This document shows, piece by piece, positions 36,026-45,592 of a stretch of 45,592 nt of DNA. This stretch comes from Mariniphaga anaerophila (lineage in GTDB: Bacteria; Bacteroidota; Bacteroidia; Bacteroidales; Prolixibacteraceae). Numbering within the stretch: position 1 is the stretch's first letter; each line of letters opens with the position of its first letter. Position numbers and translations under genes: made by a program. The stretch spans positions 1-45,592 of the forward strand of contig NZ_FQUM01000017.1 in NCBI RefSeq assembly GCF_900129025.1, written 5' to 3'. Below the pieces are notes generated by a model that searched no databases, was not told the origin of the DNA, and worked only from the letters and a program-made list of their open reading frames with translations.

Positions 36026-38759
36026 GTTGAATGTCGTCTCAATTTTGCATCTAACCACAACTACGCGCTCCAAGATGCTCATGTAAGCTAGTTGAATGTC
36101 GTCTCAATTTTGCATCAAACCACAACAAAGCCATTGAAAAGCTTGATAGCAAAGGGTTGAATGTCGTCTCAATTTTGCATCAAACCACAACCAAATGATA
36201 AGCGAAGTCGAATTTCAAAAGGTTGAATGTCGTCTCAATTTTGCATCAAACCACAACGTCGTCGATAACTTTATGAAATGTAAGATGGTTGAATGTCGTC
36301 TCAATTTTGCATCAAACCACAACAACGAACTTTCCGGCCTGACCTTCGTAAGTGTTGAATGTCGTCTCAATTTTGCATCAAACCACAACTATCAGGGCAT
36401 TGGATGCCGCTTTGGATGCGTTGAATGTCGTCTCAATTTTGCATCAAACCACAACTTTCGGGTGGTGTCCCTTCGACTATTACTAGTTGAATGTCGTCTC
36501 AATTTTGCATCAAACCACAACTTTTTAAGCTGTCTATTTCATAATTTAGCAGTTGAATGTCGTCTCAATTTTGCATCAAACCACAACTTACATGAATGGT
36601 TTAAAAAGTTCCATTAAGTTGAATGTCGTCTCAATTTTGCATCAAACCACAACCAGAATAGCATATTAACCTATTTTTACTTCGTTGAATGTCGTCTCAA
36701 TTTTGCATCAAACCACAACTTCGGGAATATCAGGAACAATTTCGTATGAGTTGAATGTCGTCTCAATTTTGCATCAAACCACAACAAGGACATAAGAGAT
36801 TTGTTCGGACACTCTGTTGAATGTCGTCTCAATTTTGCATCAAACCACAACTATCAGGATTCAGAAGGGAATTTGTTTGAGGTTGAATGTCGTCTCAATT
36901 TTGCATCAAACCACAACATGTCGCCAATCGAAGTTGTTATCCAAAAGTTGAATGTCGTCTCAATTTTGCATCAAACCACAACTTGCGGACGGTTAAATTT
37001 TCTGCGTAGTTGTTGAATGTCGTCTCAATTTTGCATCAAACCACAACTACCAGCATATTATTTCACAAATAACTCATGTTGAATGTCGTCTCAATTTTGC
37101 ATCAAACCACAACTTGGCAGTCGAATGGGGTGATTATGACGGTGTTAAATGTCGTCTCAATTTTGCATCAAACCACAACTATCAGGACGGCGAAGGAAAT
37201 TTGTTTGAAGTTGAATGTCGTCTCAATTTTGCATCAAACCACAACGACCGGGCAGATGACCTGATAAAACGCGGGGTTGAATGTCGTCTCAATTTTGCAT
37301 CAAACCACAACGCTGTCGCAGCGCGAGCTGCTGATAGTCACGTTGAATGTCGTCTCAATTTTGCATCAAACCACAACCAGTATTAAAAGCAGGTAAGAAG
37401 GGGATCAGTTGAATGTCGTCTCAATTTTGCATCAAACCACAACCTTCAACGTATTTGTATAAAAAATCGTTTTGTTGAATGTCGTCTCAATTTTGCATCA
37501 AACCACAACTACACCGCAGGCGGCATTGCCCTTGCACGGTTGAATGTCGTCTCAATTTTGCATCAAACCACAACCCCCCTCCCTTCTTATATTTTGTTTC
37601 TAAAGTTGAATGTCGTCTCAATTTTGCATCAAACCACAACTACGCTATGAGGGCTCCTGCCTGTATCAACGTTGAATGTCGTCTCAATTTTGCATCAAAC
37701 CACAACTCAGAAACATCGGCGCCAGCCATCCAAAAAAGTTGAATGTCGTCTCAATTTTGCATCAAACCACAACTTGGGAATCTTATTTACTTCATGATTA
37801 CGAGTTGAATGTCGTCTCAATTTTGCATCAAACCACAACAACTCCGGGAACTACAAGTACAAACAGGATGTTGAATGTCGTCTCAATTTTGCATCAAACC
37901 ACAACGTTGGCGCAGGACAAAGAAATTATACAGGTGTTGAATGTCGTCTCAATTTTGCATCAAACCACAACGGGGTAGCGATGCAAATACACCATGGATG
38001 CGTTGAATGTCGTCTCAATTTTGCATCAAACCACAACCTGGTAATCGCTCTCGTTCATACCACGTTTGTTGAATGTCGTCTCAATTTTGCATCAAACCAC
38101 AACTAAAGTGTATACTTCTTCGCCTACATTTAGTTGAATGTCGTCTCAATTTTGCATCAAACCACAACCTTTCTGCGGTTTGATGCGGATAAGGCCGGTT
38201 GAATGTCGTCTCAATTTTGCATCAAACCACAACTAATAATATCAATGTGACCGTCTGGAAATGTTGAATGTCGTCTCAATTTTGCATCAAACCACAACCT
38301 GGATTTATCATCTTTTAACGCCGTTGTTGTTGAATGTCGTCTCAATTTTGCATCAAACCACAACCGGAGGGCAGAGAGCAGAGAGCAGGGAGGAGTTGAA
38401 TGTCGTCTCAATTTTGCATCAAACCACAACGCCTTGTTTTTTTGCCATTAAATATTTTCAGTTGAATGTCGTCTCAATTTTGCATCAAACCACAACTGAA
38501 GATTCGGCGTATAAAATTTTGCCTGAGTTGAATGTCGTCTCAATTTTGCATCAAACCACAACGGGCAGGAATCTACAGACGGAAGTGTTTACGTTGAATG
38601 TCGTCTCAATTTTGCATCAAACCACAACCCTGACGACACTAAAGATGTGGTAAAGGAGTTGAATGTCGTCTCAATTTTGCATCAAACCACAACCACCAAT
38701 GAAATTCAATTTCAGCGCAAAGAGTTGAATGTCGTCTCAATTTTGCATCAAACCACAAC

Positions 38760-38987
38760 AAGTCCACGGGCAATACCCAGTCCCTGGTAGTTGAATGTCG
38801 TCTCAATTTTGCATCAAACCACAACCGATTGCACTTCGATTGAAAGTTTGTGCTAGTTGAATGTCGTCTCAATTTTGCATCAAACCACAACAAGTCCACG
38901 GGCAATACCCAGTCCCTGGTAGTTGAATGTCGTCTCAATTTTGCATCAAACCACAACCGATTGCACTTCGATTGAAAGTTTGTGCTA
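38760..38987 (-). repeat. Duplicated two-spacer block inside the array
   Basis: Spacers at 38760-38789 and 38826-38855 recur in the same order at 38892-38921 and 38958-38987 without a visible base change, a tandem duplication of two repeat-spacer units. Confidence 0.92.
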
Positions 38988-39779
38988 GTTGAATGTCGTC
39001 TCAATTTTGCATCAAACCACAACTCCCCTTCGTAAGCTCTCTAATATCGCCGAGTTGAATGTCGTCTCAATTTTGCATCAAACCACAACTTTCACCTGAC
39101 AGTAAACGCAGTTCATAATGTTGAATGTCGTCTCAATTTTGCATCAAACCACAACCACTCATGGCATTGAGTGCCTCTTCTGCTTGTTGAATGTCGTCTC
39201 AATTTTGCATCAAACCACAACAGTTGAGCATGAAGTTGACGAGGAACATGAGTTGAATGTCGTCTCAATTTTGCATCAAACCACAACAATGCTGTCAGTT
39301 GCCATAAAAGCACAACAGTTGAATGTCGTCTCAATTTTGCATCAAACCACAACTTTCTCCATGAGGTTATAGAAAGTCCTGCGGTTGAATGTCGTCTCAA
39401 TTTTGCATCAAACCACAACTTAACGATCATGAGTAAAAAATTAACAGATGTTGAATGTCGTCTCAATTTTGCATCAAACCACAACCGATTGCACTTCGAT
39501 TGAAAGTTTGTGCTAGTTGAATGTCGTCTCAATTTTGCATCAAACCACAACTCCCCTTCGTAAGCTCTCTAATATCGCCGAGTTGAATGTCGTCTCAATT
39601 TTGCATCAAACCACAACTTTCACCTGACAGTAAACGCAGTTCATAATGTTGAATGTCGTCTCAATTTTGCATCAAACCACAACTTTCTCCATGAGGTTAT
39701 AGAAAGTCCTGCGGTTGAATGTCGTCTCAATTTTGCATCAAACCACAACTTAACGATCATGAGTAAAAAATTAACAGAT
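38958..39779 (-). repeat. Segmental duplication with internal deletion inside the array
   Basis: The spacer series starting at 38958, 39024, 39090, then 39354 and 39420 recurs in the same order at 39486, 39552, 39618, 39684 and 39750. The three spacers at 39156, 39222 and 39288 are present only in the left copy. The simplest history is tandem duplication of an eight-unit block, then loss of three units in one copy. Confidence 0.9.
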
Positions 39780-42700
39780 GTTGAATGTCGTCTCAATTTT
39801 GCATCAAACCACAACTGTTGTTATGCGCTGGGTGGTATAATTTACGTTGAATGTCGTCTCAATTTTGCATCAAACCACAACAGTGCGCCTGTGCCGTTGA
39901 ATACTTTCTTAGTTGAATGTCGTCTCAATTTTGCATCAAACCACAACTTATCGGCAACCCCCTTGTAGGAACTTTTCGTTGAATGTCGTCTCAATTTTGC
40001 ATCAAACCACAACAGGGATTTCAGGTTGTAATTATGTTACCCGGTTGAATGTCGTCTCAATTTTGCATCAAACCACAACTAGTTTTTGATTCGATTCGAA
40101 TGACAAGCTGTTGAATGTCGTCTCAATTTTGCATCAAACCACAACATGACGCACGACGTGATGTCACGGCCAAATGTTGAATGTCGTCTCAATTTTGCAT
40201 CAAACCACAACTTGATAAAGATGTGAGTCAACCGATTTTATGTTGAATGTCGTCTCAATTTTGCATCAAACCACAACTAGCAAGGTGGAGATAAAAAATT
40301 TGGGGCGTTGAATGTCGTCTCAATTTTGCATCAAACCACAACCACTACCTTGCCTACAGATTTAAGCGTGCTGTTGAATGTCGTCTCAATTTTGCATCAA
40401 ACCACAACCTATTGAAACCGTTCGAACACACAAAAAGAGTTGAATGTCGTCTCAATTTTGCATCAAACCACAACTAACTCCTTAAGTCTTCCGCGCTCCT
40501 CGCGGTTGAATGTCGTCTCAATTTTGCATCAAACCACAACGAAACACCATTTGAAGAATTTCTCATTGTGTTGAATGTCGTCTCAATTTTGCATCAAACC
40601 ACAACGGAATGCACGTAGTAACGGGTGCAATTCAAGTTGAATGTCGTCTCAATTTTGCATCAAACCACAACATAAATATGATACATACATGTGAACAGAT
40701 TGTTGAATGTCGTCTCAATTTTGCATCAAACCACAACTCGTTTTTGTCTGGCTTGTTGGCTAGTACCGTTGAATGTCGTCTCAATTTTGCATCAAACCAC
40801 AACGGTTTGGTCTCCGGTGGTTTCGTTAGCCGGTTGAATGTCGTCTCAATTTTGCATCAAACCACAACGCTGGCAGGTGTTTTACATTCGGATCGAAGTT
40901 GAATGTCGTCTCAATTTTGCATCAAACCACAACTTCTAGTTTGGTATATAATTCCAGAAAAATGTTGAATGTCGTCTCAATTTTGCATCAAACCACAACT
41001 TTATCAACCATGTAGGAATATGCAAGGTTTGTTGAATGTCGTCTCAATTTTGCATCAAACCACAACATAGAACTAGGTAGAAATCCATTCGGCTTTGTTG
41101 AATGTCGTCTCAATTTTGCATCAAACCACAACTGCAATTCGTTGTTGCTTCTTTCCGGCATTGTTGAATGTCGTCTCAATTTTGCATCAAACCACAACAT
41201 TGTTTTCTTCTTCGCTGAATAAATCAACGTTGAATGTCGTCTCAATTTTGCATCAAACCACAACCGTTTGCCGTGGTCTTCGGTAATGGTTGTTGTTGAA
41301 TGTCGTCTCAATTTTGCATCAAACCACAACTCCCGGTAGTTGTGCATAGTAATTGTTCCGGTTGAATGTCGTCTCAATTTTGCATCAAACCACAACCCAA
41401 GGATAATCATAATAATCATTAGTTCTGTTGAATGTCGTCTCAATTTTGCATCAAACCACAACTTTTTTTATTTTGTCGTTGTGAAAATACGAGTTGAATG
41501 TCGTCTCAATTTTGCATCAAACCACAACGTTTGCCACGTGTTAGCCATCTGGCGGGATGTTGAATGTCGTCTCAATTTTGCATCAAACCACAACAAAGGT
41601 CGTCCAACTCTGCAATAAATTGCGGTTGAATGTCGTCTCAATTTTGCATCAAACCACAACTAATATCATGACAACTTACAAAAAAAATTAGTTGAATGTC
41701 GTCTCAATTTTGCATCAAACCACAACTTTAACGACGATGGACTGAACAATTCATTAGTTGAATGTCGTCTCAATTTTGCATCAAACCACAACGTACCGAC
41801 GGGAAGGTGTATCCATTTCCCGGTTGAATGTCGTCTCAATTTTGCATCAAACCACAACCCACATAGCTCGCGAACGTTGTGCGTTATTGTTGAATGTCGT
41901 CTCAATTTTGCATCAAACCACAACGCCCTGAAGGCCTGGAAGGACGGTTAACCGTTGAATGTCGTCTCAATTTTGCATCAAACCACAACCCTGAGTAAAT
42001 TCTAAAGTATTACCTGTAAGTTGAATGTCGTCTCAATTTTGCATCAAACCACAACTTGGCCGGCCACACTTGCAAGCTTCCCTTCGTTGAATGTCGTCTC
42101 AATTTTGCATCAAACCACAACCACTCGGATGGCAACGGCAACACCTCGCCTGTTGAATGTCGTCTCAATTTTGCATCAAACCACAACATGGCGCTCATGC
42201 CCAACTCTTTGGCTATGTTGAATGTCGTCTCAATTTTGCATCAAACCACAACTTTATCCAATTAATCAATGCTTTGCCCGTTGTTGAATGTCGTCTCAAT
42301 TTTGCATCAAACCACAACCCAGTTGTTTATCTAGTATTTCTGCTTCAAGTTGAATGTCGTCTCAATTTTGCATCAAACCACAACTTTTGCCCGCTAAATA
42401 AAAATATTTTTGGTGTTGAATGTCGTCTCAATTTTGCATCAAACCACAACCCTAATTTTTGTAGTATAAATTCATTGTCAGTTGAATGTCGTCTCAATTT
42501 TGCATCAAACCACAACTTCAATCCGTTCCATTGCTTCCAAATTTTAGTTGAATGTCGTCTCAATTTTGCATCAAACCACAACATAACAGGGATGAACCTG
42601 TAAATTTCAAGAGTTGAATGTCGTCTCAATTTTGCATCAAACCACAACCCTCAATTGTCCCCCTCCAGGGGGACGAGGTTGAATGTCGTCTCAATTTTGC

Positions 42701-42910
42701 ATCAAACCACAACTTCTTTTTCGTCAACCCCCGCGATTACAGGGTTGAATGTCGTCTCAATTTTGCATCAAACCACAACGCTTAGCCCGACATTAACAAA
42801 CCCGCGAGTGTTGAATGTCGTCTCAATTTTGCATCAAACCACAACAATCTCAATTTCACGGTTAAACCCCTGAGGTTGAATGTCGTCTCAATTTTGCATC
42901 AAACCACAAC

Positions 42911-43132
42911 TAAGGGGGAGGAATAGCTTGTAAACACTGGCTTTTTCTCCAATTTTACAATCAAATAATTCCTGCTTCCGCACAAAGAAGTGGTTTAATG
43001 CGTCCATTTTTTTATTTCTAGTGGCAAAATCAATTTTCTTTTTTCAGTATTTCAAAGAACAACATAAAAGTAGATATTTTTAACAGATCCTCAAAGTTTT
43101 TAACGCGCTGAAACTCCTTGGTGTTCCCCTCT
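42911..43132 (-). promoter_or_regulatory. CRISPR leader region
   Basis: 222 bases between cas2 and the intact repeat end, AT-rich and without an ORF. By position it is the leader where new spacers enter and where the array promoter should be. I found no clear TAnnTTTG box on the - strand. It holds a possible anti-repeat at 42990-43001. Confidence 0.65.
42976..43001 (-). ncRNA. Possible tracrRNA anti-repeat
   Basis: On the - strand 43001-42990 reads GCATTAAACCAC, which pairs fully (one G-U wobble) with positions 4-15 of the predicted crRNA repeat (GTGGTTTGATGC). Only this part is complementary; the remaining repeat is not matched. It is followed at once by a small CTTC...GAAG hairpin. This is the part of the repeat that type II crRNAs retain for tracrRNA pairing. 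No promoter or terminator was identified, so a decayed repeat or leader motif is an alternative. Confidence 0.35.
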
Positions 43133-43471
43133 TCAGAACATTTCCAATTGTTTGGGGCCGGCGGGCAAGGGCGATGACTTTTTGCCCCACACATTTACAA
43201 TATTTCCATATTGCTTGTCGGTTACCGCAAGTATGCTCACCTGCCCTTTCTGGGGAATAAATCCCTTCACCCTTTTTATATGTACTTCTGCACTCTCTTT
43301 ACTGGCACAATGCCGGTTGTACACCGAAAACTGCATCATACTGAAACCATCGTTCATCAGGTCTTTTCTGAAACGGGTGGCCTGCCGCCGTTCGGTTTTG
43401 GTGGTAACCGGCAGGTCGAAAAACACAAACAGCCACATAATATGGTAAGCATTTAAACGGGTTAGTTCCAT
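43133..43471 (-). CDS. cas2: CRISPR-associated Cas2, type II character
   Basis: 112 residues from the ATG at 43471. The reading frame extends to a TTG at 43537 overlapping cas1, but the family usually starts just before the LNAYHIMWLFVFFDLPV strand, as here. D19 in FFDLP is the conserved acidic residue; MMQFSVYNRHCASKESAEVHIKRVKGFIP and VSILAVTDKQYGNI are characteristic of type II Cas2 proteins. It forms the adaptation complex with Cas1 and helps insert spacers at the leader end. It is the last gene before the array. Confidence 0.95.
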   Translation of the reverse strand: MELTRLNAYHIMWLFVFFDLPVTTKTERRQATRFRKDLMNDGFSMMQFSVYNRHCASKESAEVHIKRVKGFIPQKGQVSILAVTDKQYGNIVNVWGKKSSPLPAGPKQLEMF

Positions 43472-43529
43472 AGTTCTTTTATCAGACCTTTTCCTAACTT
43501 TCCAATGTCTGAAATTTCGAAAAAGATTT

Positions 43530-44420
43530 CTATTCAAATTCAGGATAAATAATTTTACGGGTCTCCCCGCTATAGCAGCGGCTTAGCGATGCTGTTGTTT
43601 GCGAAAGCGCCACCATTAATGGCCTTTTGTTTTCGGCAATATATACATCGGCGGCCATGAGCTGCAGCAGTTCCGCTTTATGCTCCTTTTCGAGCATCAG
43701 TGCATCAGGATATTTTTCGTACAGATTGAAAGCAATTTCATCAACCCAGGGGCGATAAGGTTCCATAATATCATCGGCCAGGCAAAACGCATTGTACCGG
43801 TTCCGGTGGTGGATACCCAAGGTAGCCAGGAGGCCCGAACCGGACAACGCCCGGGCTACAGCCGACCGCAACAGAATATACCCGTAGTTAAGAAACGGGT
43901 TGGGCGGTTCGCCATATCGGTCGCGAATAAACGTTTTGCCAAAAAGAGCCGTCCAGTATATGCGCGAGGCAAACCCTTCGCGGTTGTCACTGTCGCCACT
44001 TTTAATGGCTCGGGCAAGGGTTTTAAGTTGCGAAGCCGGCTTCCCAAACTTTTCGAGCAGGCGTGCCTGGTTTTTTATTTTCATCTCGATGGTTTGTTTC
44101 CACAGGTTCTTTTTAAGTGGCTCTGAAGCCGCAATTTGTGCCCTGAACAGTTCGCTTTGAATATGATGTGCATCCAGCGGCAACAGCATTGACGACGGCA
44201 TATGTTTACTGTCGCAAAGCACAGTGGCCACATTAAACTCTGCTAGCTCTTCCACCAGTTTCATGGTAAATGAAATCTGGGGATGATCGAGCACAATAAA
44301 TCCGAGGTCTTCAACCGGGGCTGTTTTTAAAGGAACACCGGATTTTTCTGACGCCACCAGTTGTTTGTTCTTTAACGATAAATGGCAGGGGCTGGAAATA
44401 AATAAGGTTCTTTTTAGCAT
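43530..44420 (-). CDS. cas1: CRISPR-associated Cas1, type II character
   Basis: 296 residues from the ATG at 44420. The sequence matches the type II (NMENI-like) Cas1 group: SGLLATLGIHHRNRYNAFCLADDIMEPYRPWVDE near the centre. The three metal-binding positions are visible as E148 (REGFASRIYW), H205 (GIHH) and E220 (DDIMEPYR), so the integrase should be active. Cas1 catalyses spacer insertion together with Cas2. It is 58 bp from the chosen cas2 start. In type II-C operons cas9 normally lies directly upstream; here that place is taken by repeat elements and a transposase gene. Confidence 0.97.
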   Translation of the reverse strand: MLKRTLFISSPCHLSLKNKQLVASEKSGVPLKTAPVEDLGFIVLDHPQISFTMKLVEELAEFNVATVLCDSKHMPSSMLLPLDAHHIQSELFRAQIAASEPLKKNLWKQTIEMKIKNQARLLEKFGKPASQLKTLARAIKSGDSDNREGFASRIYWTALFGKTFIRDRYGEPPNPFLNYGYILLRSAVARALSGSGLLATLGIHHRNRYNAFCLADDIMEPYRPWVDEIAFNLYEKYPDALMLEKEHKAELLQLMAADVYIAENKRPLMVALSQTTASLSRCYSGETRKIIYPEFE

Positions 44421-44437: not shown

Positions 44438-44520
44438 GAAATACTTTCGGGCTTTACTGGCACCGAAAAACTATTATTTTATTCCGAAATGTCTTTTTAA
44501 CCTTCGATGTTTCTGTTCCT
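44438..44520 (-). repeat. Degenerate REP-like element between cas1 and the transposase gene
   Basis: This stretch aligns without gaps over about 83-85 bases to the element at 44910-44994. It keeps CTTTCGGG...CACCGAAA, CCGAA.TGTCTTT and ACCTTCG in the same spacing, but many other positions differ. It starts 18 bp upstream of the cas1 ATG and runs to the last codon of the transposase gene. Confidence 0.6.
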
Positions 44521-45211
44521 AGGAATCATTCGCCCTATCAATTTTAAGTTCGTTATACTTTTCAATCTTTTCTGCAGAATGATATTTAACGAGGTTACTC
44601 TTATCGTTGAACCATTCCATTACTTCGGCACGACTTAACTTCGTTGTTTTCGGCGAAATCATAGTCAAATACGAACTCCACGGATAATCTAGGAAATGCT
44701 CGCAAAAACCGTGATGAATCGGGTTATGATGAATGTAATAAACCAGGTACTTCAGGTGTATTTCCGAATGGATTTCTATTCTTCTGAATGGGTGTTCAAA
44801 CAGGCTGCCGGTTCGGCGAAAGCGTTTGTTTATGGCTTTTGTGTAGGCATTAAATAAATGGGAAAATTGGTTTGTCGGGTTATATCTTTTTGAAATGTTT
44901 TGGGTATTTGAAACGCTTTCGGGTCTAAAAGACACCGAAAGGTTTGTTGCTGACCCCGAAGTGTCTTTCCGACCTTCGGGAGTCTGAGTTCCCATGAAAG
45001 ATATTTCCTCCTCCTTTCTTATTCTTACCAAGAAATGAAAATGATTTCTCATCAAAACCCACGCAAATGTATCGGCCACTGGCGAAACATACTTATCGTA
45101 CAGATGAAGAAAATATTCATAATTCTCATTTTCCCGAAATAGGTTACAACCATTGATTCCCCGGTTATAGATATGGTAAAACTGTCCGTATTCGAGTGAT
45201 ACTGGTCCCAT
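44519..45211 (-). CDS. REP-associated tyrosine transposase (RAYT/Y1 family)
   Basis: 230 residues from the ATG at 45209-45211. The HUH motif is RNHFHFLVRI (H57, H59) and the likely nucleophilic tyrosine is Y123 in FNAYTKAINKRFRRTGSLFEHPFRR; YHIYNRGINGCNLF is the family's opening block. These enzymes cut and join single-stranded REP hairpins. Residues about 74-101 (GTQTPEGRKDTSG ... FRPESVS) are encoded by a REP-like double hairpin, an in-frame insert in the variable loop between the HUH and tyrosine parts. The protein otherwise looks complete. Confidence 0.88.
   Translation of the reverse strand: MGPVSLEYGQFYHIYNRGINGCNLFRENENYEYFLHLYDKYVSPVADTFAWVLMRNHFHFLVRIRKEEEISFMGTQTPEGRKDTSGSATNLSVSFRPESVSNTQNISKRYNPTNQFSHLFNAYTKAINKRFRRTGSLFEHPFRRIEIHSEIHLKYLVYYIHHNPIHHGFCEHFLDYPWSSYLTMISPKTTKLSRAEVMEWFNDKSNLVKYHSAEKIEKYNELKIDRANDS
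44910..44994 (-). repeat. REP-like double-hairpin element inside the transposase ORF
   Basis: Two stems are visible on the + strand: CTTTCGGGTCTAAAAGACACCGAAAG and CCCGAAG...CTTCGGG (twelve-base loop). The first has an internal GTCT/AGAC stem. The element is read through in frame by the transposase gene. A close copy lies at 45244-45328 and a partial one begins at 45578. Confidence 0.75.
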
Positions 45212-45592
45212 TTATTTGCATTTAAAAACGTTCGAGATTTTCGGAAACGCTTTCGGGGATATAAGACACCGAAAGGTTTGCCGCTGCCCCCGAAGTGTCT
45301 TTCCGACCTTCGGGAGTCTGAGTTCCCATGAAAGATATTTCCTCCTCCTTTCTTATTCTTACCAAGAAATGAAAATGACTTCTCATCAAAACCCACGCAA
45401 ATGTATCGGCCACTGGCGAAACATATTTATCGTACAGATGAAGAAAATACTCGTAATTCTCACTTTCCCGAAATAGGTTACAACCATTGATTCCGCGGTT
45501 ATAGATATGATAAAACTGTCCGTATTCGAGTGATACTGGTCCCATTTATTTGCATTTAAAAACGTTCGATGTTTTCGGAAACGCTTTCGGGT
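45212..45592 (-). repeat. 334-bp tandem repetition of the transposase 5' region
   Basis: The segment from the REP-like element through the transposase start recurs with exactly 334-bp spacing: GAAACGCTTTCGGG at 44910, 45244 and 45578, and the start codon at 45211 and 45545. The copies are nearly identical with scattered, mostly silent changes. The third unit runs off the window. Confidence 0.85.
45222..45545 (-). pseudogene. Truncated RAYT/Y1 transposase fragment (tandem copy)
   Basis: 107 codons nearly identical to residues 1-101 of the neighbouring transposase, then SENLERF and a stop at the tandem junction. The HFHF motif is present (N56 changed to S before it), but the tyrosine half is missing, so it cannot be a complete transposase. 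Its stop is created where the REP-like element of this copy joins the upstream sequence of the next. Confidence 0.85.

Follow-up and report, generated by a model that had tools for sequence, protein, structure and literature searches.

Why would a transposase gene carry, inside its own reading frame, a hairpin of the kind on which such enzymes presumably act? The question is raised by contig NZ_FQUM01000017.1 of Mariniphaga anaerophila, a stretch of 45,592 nucleotides analysed at full length (hereafter the window), in which a gene for a RAYT-like transposase encloses a REP-like double hairpin and lies beside cas1 (Table 1). The window is contig C43 of a 45-contig genome; in the labels used below, G denotes a genome, C a contig and L a locus, RAYT or loop. 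The answer that we favour, with moderate confidence, is that the double hairpin is the cognate repeat of this RAYT, housed in a permissive loop between the HUH motif and the tyrosine, and that enzyme and hairpins form a REPtron-like module in a type II cas operon, probably of subtype II-C.

A double hairpin within a RAYT reading frame

The preliminary description had called the protein RAYT-like, and this is borne out by an alignment of 25 sequences (A1), in which the HUH motif (N56-H59) and Y159 in YIHHNP, the motifs that mark RAYT/TnpAREP proteins, are invariant or nearly so; its catalytic activity, read from these motifs, is putative. The RAYTs scored against standard models fall under the cut-offs of those models, which may be why a link between RAYTs and CRISPR is easy to miss: against NCBIfam REP_Tyr_transpos (NF047646, cut-off 80) the M. 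anaerophila protein reaches 51.8 bits (E 7.8e-14) and its relatives L045 and L101 reach 47.7 and 71.8 bits, and Pfam Y1_Tnp scores under its cut-off in three relatives. The protein had no match in Pfam at 0.001, and PADLOC matched neither it nor a neighbouring 218-aa open reading frame (ORF). The gene is under purifying selection, with dN/dS of 0.07-0.14 in the 5 of 28 pairs for which an unsaturated dS made the ratio computable.

The double hairpin encodes about residues 77-101 and leaves the frame open, and sequence, fold and alignment A1 agree with its earlier placement between the HUH and tyrosine parts of the protein. The two hairpins share a design, with an outer stem of 7 bp, a short stem inside it and a bulge of a single base, and they point in opposite directions, an arrangement that resembles a REP doublet. 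Folded as DNA, the element reaches -21.7 kcal/mol (z -5.5, with none of 200 shuffles as good), and codon shuffles that preserve the protein give z -4.6; these values exclude both coincidence and a side effect of the encoded protein as the origin of the hairpin. No GT[AG]G foot is present in the element or its 20-nt flanks, which sets it apart from canonical REPs of the GT[AG]G class, and such a foot occurs in one of 46 single-hairpin loops (1.6 expected). Palindromic repeats in frame inside unrelated host genes are familiar as Rickettsia palindromic elements (RPE), whereas here the host is the putative partner of the repeat.

The core idea, that hairpins can lie inside such transposase genes, is already published: Quentin et al. 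(2018; PMC6006769) report in-frame REPs, generally between HuH and Y, inside tnpAREP genes of subclass 2.4, and the expectation that RAYT hairpins normally flank the gene instead of lying within it has to be given up. The window RAYT, with its in-frame element between HuH and Y, resembles subclass 2.4 in its in-gene REP-type hairpins, its flanking copies and its origin in Bacteroidetes, but it lacks the GT[AG]G foot of subclass 2.4 REPs, and it has FE and YIHHNP where the table for that subclass gives WQ and YIxNNP (PMC6006769). Subclass 2.6 of the same work likewise comes from Bacteroidetes and has atypical, footless hairpins with copies elsewhere in the genome; however, in-gene REPs are given there as a feature of subclass 2.4 and not of 2.6, and the HuH motif of 2.6 is NH[LIV]H as against NHFH in the window RAYT. 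Intragenic REPs (PMC3733652) are likewise palindromic, lie within other genes and are read through in frame as protein, but those genes are unrelated to the repeat, whereas the host gene in the window is its putative partner and the site recurs.

Table 1. Features of the RAYT and CRISPR-Cas region in the window
Feature	Position	Strand	Remarks
RAYT-like HUH Y1 transposase gene	44519..45211	-	230 aa; hairpin-coded loop inside
In-frame double hairpin	44910..44983	-	sequence, DNA fold, codon shuffle; model R1 97.4 bits (R1 built partly from this copy)
Hairpin 1	44955..44980	-	CCCGAAG...CTTCGGG
Hairpin 2	44916..44941	-	CTTTCGG...CCGAAAG
Degenerate double hairpin	44438..44511	-	3' of RAYT, before cas1; model R1 69.6 bits
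Second copy of double hairpin	45244..45317	-	sequence, model R1; at end of truncated upstream ORF
Truncated RAYT N-half ORF	45222..45545	-	107 aa; ends in hairpin
Tandem array, period 334	44910..45591	-	hairpin + RAYT N-half; 2.0 copies, 95% matches; continues past contig end
cas1, type II	43530..44420	-	TIGR03639, 284.8 bits, cut-off 120
cas2	43133..43537	-	TIGR01573, 67.9 bits, cut-off 24.5
CRISPR array	38002..42950	.	about 36-nt repeat, period 65-66, 75 unit copies; end approximate, scan started at 38000

The loop as a recurrent hairpin site

An extra loop peculiar to this lineage had been foreseen as the outcome of aligning homologues, and it did not materialise: many RAYTs of the class have this same loop with hairpins of other kinds in it, both at the family level and class-wide. 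The family-level sample comprised 60 genomes, M. anaerophila included, and in addition a set of named genomes, with 32 RAYT frames of 170 aa or more in all, of which 28 could be tested by codon shuffling (four ORFs without the motif pattern were left out). In all 28, the best local hairpin within the segment scanned fell in the HUH-to-Y loop, and 24 of them gave a codon-shuffle z of -2 or less. Across the class the loop is a common but not universal hairpin site: among 396 genomes, 80 held a RAYT at E 1e-25, and in the 84 frames kept (29 were set aside as lacking the motif or too short, and several of the 84 loops, e.g. L090, L097, L103, L112 and L137, are badly delimited) the best hairpin lay in the loop in 34, compared with 16.6 expected, and z was below -3 in 26 of the 84. 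A quick tree of 123 RAYTs, computed without the loop columns, implies at least 22 changes of the hairpin, and by a strict rule it is missing from 68 of the 98 RAYTs without cas linkage and present in the other 30; thus the protein does not need the hairpin in general. The M. anaerophila genome itself has a second RAYT on contig C22, a 453-aa ORF (L015 599-2985; G000:C22:611000-614000) whose 87-aa loop shows no hairpin excess (codon-shuffle z 0.4). That locus also has a double-hairpin family of another kind, unrelated to the first, which occurs repeatedly in an open frame upstream of the second RAYT and is again read in frame in the long C-terminal extension of this RAYT.

Conservation of the hairpin appears to lie in its DNA and not in the encoded protein. 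When the 123 loops were scanned for stems of 12 bp closed by a 3-nt loop, 46 hairpins emerged, a few of them doubtful, and 18 of these, from cas-linked genes, gave a gap-free alignment for the study of covariation. Paired letters fill 99.5% of the pairing cells (75.7% after shuffling), a figure biased by the fact that the scan selected for pairing, and the informative part is the double-sided changes: 9 of the 12 stem pairs changed on both sides, compared with 5.9 in shuffled sets, 2 of 500 of which scored as high. The covariation score was 0.722, against 0.243 when shuffled and at most 0.314 when slid, while a measure of further pair types in the same 18 hairpins showed no excess over shuffles (311/500). 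The hairpins of L101 and L108 differ in loop letters only and are read in codon phase 0 and phase 1, respectively, so that the encoded peptides differ. Codon-shuffle excess, double-sided pair changes and two codon phases together show that the loop hairpin is constrained as nucleic acid. The preliminary description had named as contrary evidence a loop kept as protein with its pairing lost; none was seen, and the cas-linked homologues show the reverse.

This constraint bears on the alternative that the hairpin is a tolerated selfish insertion, the loop simply accepting frame-keeping REP-like insertions that have no cis function, which we consider unlikely but the most serious of the competing accounts. 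Its nearest counterpart is a comment in PMC6006769 that activity may be little affected by the variable region, and it is consistent with the many RAYT loops that have no hairpin and with the turnover of hairpin families in the same loop, as between Draconibacterium orientale and G031, whose hairpins, both in the loop and at matching junctions, belong to different families. Against it stand the double-sided changes that preserve pairing and the regular presence of the loop hairpin in cas-linked RAYTs, which number 25 of the 123 (L022, which matched only the 218-aa ORF, was removed, and L046 was counted through cas9): all 25 carry it by inspection and 23 by the strict rule. Copy number argues in both directions. 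A pattern search of 16 genomes turned up one copy each in G187, G253, G294, G398 and G411, in every case the hairpin in the RAYT loop, so that the loop holds the only copy found in five of the seven genomes whose loop fits the pattern, although the reversed pattern, which had no match in 15 genomes, also matched once in G253. The pattern occurs 4 times in G152 and 14 times genome-wide in G098, the loop included in both, which suits a selfish element in the case of G098; it occurs 3 times each in G066 and G205, whose loops hold other hairpins, and is absent from 7 of the 16 genomes.

Hairpins and partial copies around the gene

A double hairpin of the same family as the loop hairpin lies on both sides of the RAYT gene, a setting that marks RAYT/TnpAREP genes. 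Among 52 strong loop hairpins, 31 have a copy (22/28 letters or more) within 1.5 kb, a comparison with a weak control since hairpin families are shared, 27 of the 52 being matched as well by at least one of 12 foreign hairpins.

The hairpin and the N-half of RAYT are repeated in tandem up to the contig end (Table 1). Contig C29 ends in two rounds of hairpin and N-half, which adds two further N-half copies, and because it bears this same array, C29 very probably runs on into C43. About 74 bp are common to the loop hairpin and the hairpin 5' of the gene, and unequal recombination between the two would have given rise to the 334-bp array. Dispersal of the N-half unit by transposition was also considered; N-half copies in the M. 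anaerophila genome were found only in the array and in the second RAYT on C22, which makes recombination the simpler account, and a further match on contig C21 looked like chance. In G341:C1 (L208 6097-6955) a truncated 85-aa RAYT N-half that ends in the hairpin directly precedes a full RAYT and cas1, as an origin by recombination between hairpins predicts. The full gene and array copy 2 differ by two nonsynonymous and five synonymous changes, too few for a claim; both nonsynonymous changes strike conserved positions or their neighbours in copy 2, so the array copies may be inert. Partial copies are also found elsewhere. A 136-aa frame at L036 (G006:C23) runs from a RAYT N-half through two hairpin-coded repeats to an apparent RAYT C-terminus, as would result from a deletion of the C-half between hairpins, and L231 1-111 (G001:C116, at a contig end) holds a second copy of the G001 hairpin and RAYT start with other DNA upstream.

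Matches to the double-hairpin model R1 were found in 14 of the 60 family-level genomes, M. anaerophila included. They lie within the CRISPR locus or contig at 5 of 5 places in M. anaerophila, 3 of 3 in G018, 7 of 8 in G031, 6 of 8 in G027 and 3 of 8 in G001, where the places outside are mostly intergenic. A REPIN is a mobile unit of two oppositely oriented REP hairpins; the in-frame element has two hairpins in this arrangement, and related elements are dispersed between genes in G001, but in M. anaerophila copies occur at the CRISPR locus only, and the element is at most a candidate REPIN. At L235 902-986 (G031:C1:2709401) the double hairpin is matched weakly (46 bits) within a different open frame, 452 aa long. 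A search of each locus with its own loop hairpin revealed copies at other junctions for 8 of the 20 informative loci and none for the remaining 12 (L203, whose loop was missed by the scan, is uninformative). The copies in G031 stand before cas9, before RAYT, in the loop, in the RAYT/cas1 gap, in the cas1/cas2 gap and after cas2. D. orientale has a different, single-hairpin family at four sites corresponding to those of G031, loop included, and a variant palindrome of that family at a fifth, the RAYT/cas1 gap; the family occupies 22 places in its genome, several of them around the CRISPR locus. The M. anaerophila locus has one copy of the D. orientale family, at C29 725250-725278 between the 218-aa ORF and the array, which is read as a remnant of an earlier hairpin family.

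Hairpins at several cas gene junctions in G031 and D. orientale invite another explanation, in which they act as RNA elements in the cas transcript (in its stability, processing or pausing), at junctions and inside the RAYT message, and the enzyme does not act on them. REPs do have roles in mRNA stability, and RAYT and cas genes are co-oriented in all 21 mapped loci (12 of the 18 other genomes with a RAYT beside cas1, the other six being left out, together with seven relatives, L045 and L046). Yet in the 12 informative loci just mentioned the hairpin was found inside the gene and at no other junction, and near-perfect palindromes fold on either strand, and we regard this explanation as improbable.

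Association with type II cas genes

Taken together across the probable join, which rests on the hairpin and N-half array at both contig ends, C29 and C43 give the gene order cas9 and 218-aa ORF (C29), then RAYT, degenerate double hairpin, cas1, cas2 and CRISPR array (C43). The cas9 frame is 1347 aa in length, and the part tested matches TIGR01865 with 203.5 bits (cut-off 100). With cas9, cas1, cas2 and an array, this is a type II CRISPR-Cas locus, and gene order and phylum indicate that it is probably II-C. The 218-aa ORF, which has no Pfam match over cut-off, is seen between cas9 and RAYT in three loci (L014 2575-3231, L193 4991-5776 and L045 2239-2934).

Such proximity recurs. Among the 396 genomes, 94 of which have a cas1 over cut-off, a RAYT lies at most 1.5 kb from a type II cas1 of its own contig in 18 genomes besides M. 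anaerophila, always on the same strand, where we estimate from genome size that chance would give well under one; in G279 the distance is 6.5 kb. The mapped loci have cas9, RAYT and cas1 directly in succession in 14 of 21 and with one more ORF between cas9 and RAYT in 4, and the order is different in L209, L210 and L046. At L209 5836-8144 (G066:C36), cas1 is flanked by two RAYTs with different loop hairpins in one operon. Linkage also goes with the hairpin: cas1 is in the flanks of 13 of 28 hairpin-bearing RAYTs and of none of 52 others (Fisher p 1.2e-7, kinship ignored; 80 of the 84 class frames, with L155, L156, L158 and L160 left out). An independent-pairs test of hairpin against cas linkage had 3 pairs on supported branches, too few for any significance. 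On the tree, cas linkage takes 9 changes (23 when shuffled), at least 3 of them forced by supported branches, so linkage arose or was lost more than once; the window RAYT's own clade of 9 is cas-linked throughout. For comparison, 20 type II loci were chosen for lacking such a RAYT, 18 of them with both cas9 and cas1 labelled and two lacking a labelled cas9. In 10 of the 18 the cas9-cas1 gap is within 60 bp and holds no strong hairpin, whereas 5 of the 18, all with wider gaps, have a strong hairpin there (-9.8 to -17.2). Two of the 20, L227 and L230, were found to hold a more distant RAYT.

One may argue that RAYT and its hairpins are what causes cas9 to be replaced while the neighbouring cas1 is retained. 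D. orientale and G031 would fit, their Cas1 being 93%, their RAYT 82% and their Cas9 25% identical, and RAYT distances track those of Cas1 (Mantel rho 0.589, 0/2000 permutations) better than those of Cas9 (0.172, 49/2000; L210, with its partial cas9, was left out). The idea failed its control, and we give it very little credence: among pairs whose Cas1 is 65-75% identical, Cas9 identity is less than 35% for 12 of 16 controls and for 14 of 17 RAYT pairs, and loci without RAYT thus decouple as much. Exchange of cas9 in II-C loci is moreover described generally, in situ exchange being reported from Flavobacteriales (PMC12669027).

Transposases near CRISPR loci have been reported before. A "Y1 Tpase" is listed among putative CRISPR auxiliary genes (PMC10910872), like the window RAYT a Y1 transposase associated with CRISPR loci, although the text gives neither CRISPR type nor Y1 family and it may or may not belong to the family described here; IS982 and IS256 transposases are known from a II-C locus (PMC10309648). 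A literature search covering titles, the starts of abstracts and passages found no tie between RAYTs and type II CRISPR, and the main text of PMC6006769 contains no occurrence of CRISPR, cas1 or cas9. What looks to go beyond the published idea is that the hairpin is conserved as DNA and that the gene recurs beside cas1 in related bacteria.

In summary, hairpins recur in this loop across the RAYT family, and the same hairpin family flanks the gene. In the preferred reading, a cognate repeat in a permissive loop, the enzyme would bind the hairpin and may regulate itself, and any role in CRISPR is likewise hypothetical. RAYT would recognise the loop hairpin as a single strand (REP recognition is treated in PMC8266576); if it does, the gene carries its own predicted binding site in cis, and this site would most likely limit the expression or activity of RAYT itself. 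A more far-reaching possibility, which we put forward tentatively, is that RAYTs with such a hairpin belong to the type II CRISPR operons of Bacteroidota as genuine accessory genes, acting with the hairpins on the cas locus through control of the cas transcript, processing of single strands or prespacers, or local remodelling, with the in-gene hairpin as the cis element that ties the enzyme to its own expression. A transposase gene that carries its own REP, so far a described curiosity, becomes testable here, and pairing that is kept while the peptide and even the codon phase change points to selection on nucleic acid inside coding sequence. That the gene recurs next to type II cas1 suggests that CRISPR operons and domesticated HUH transposases are connected.
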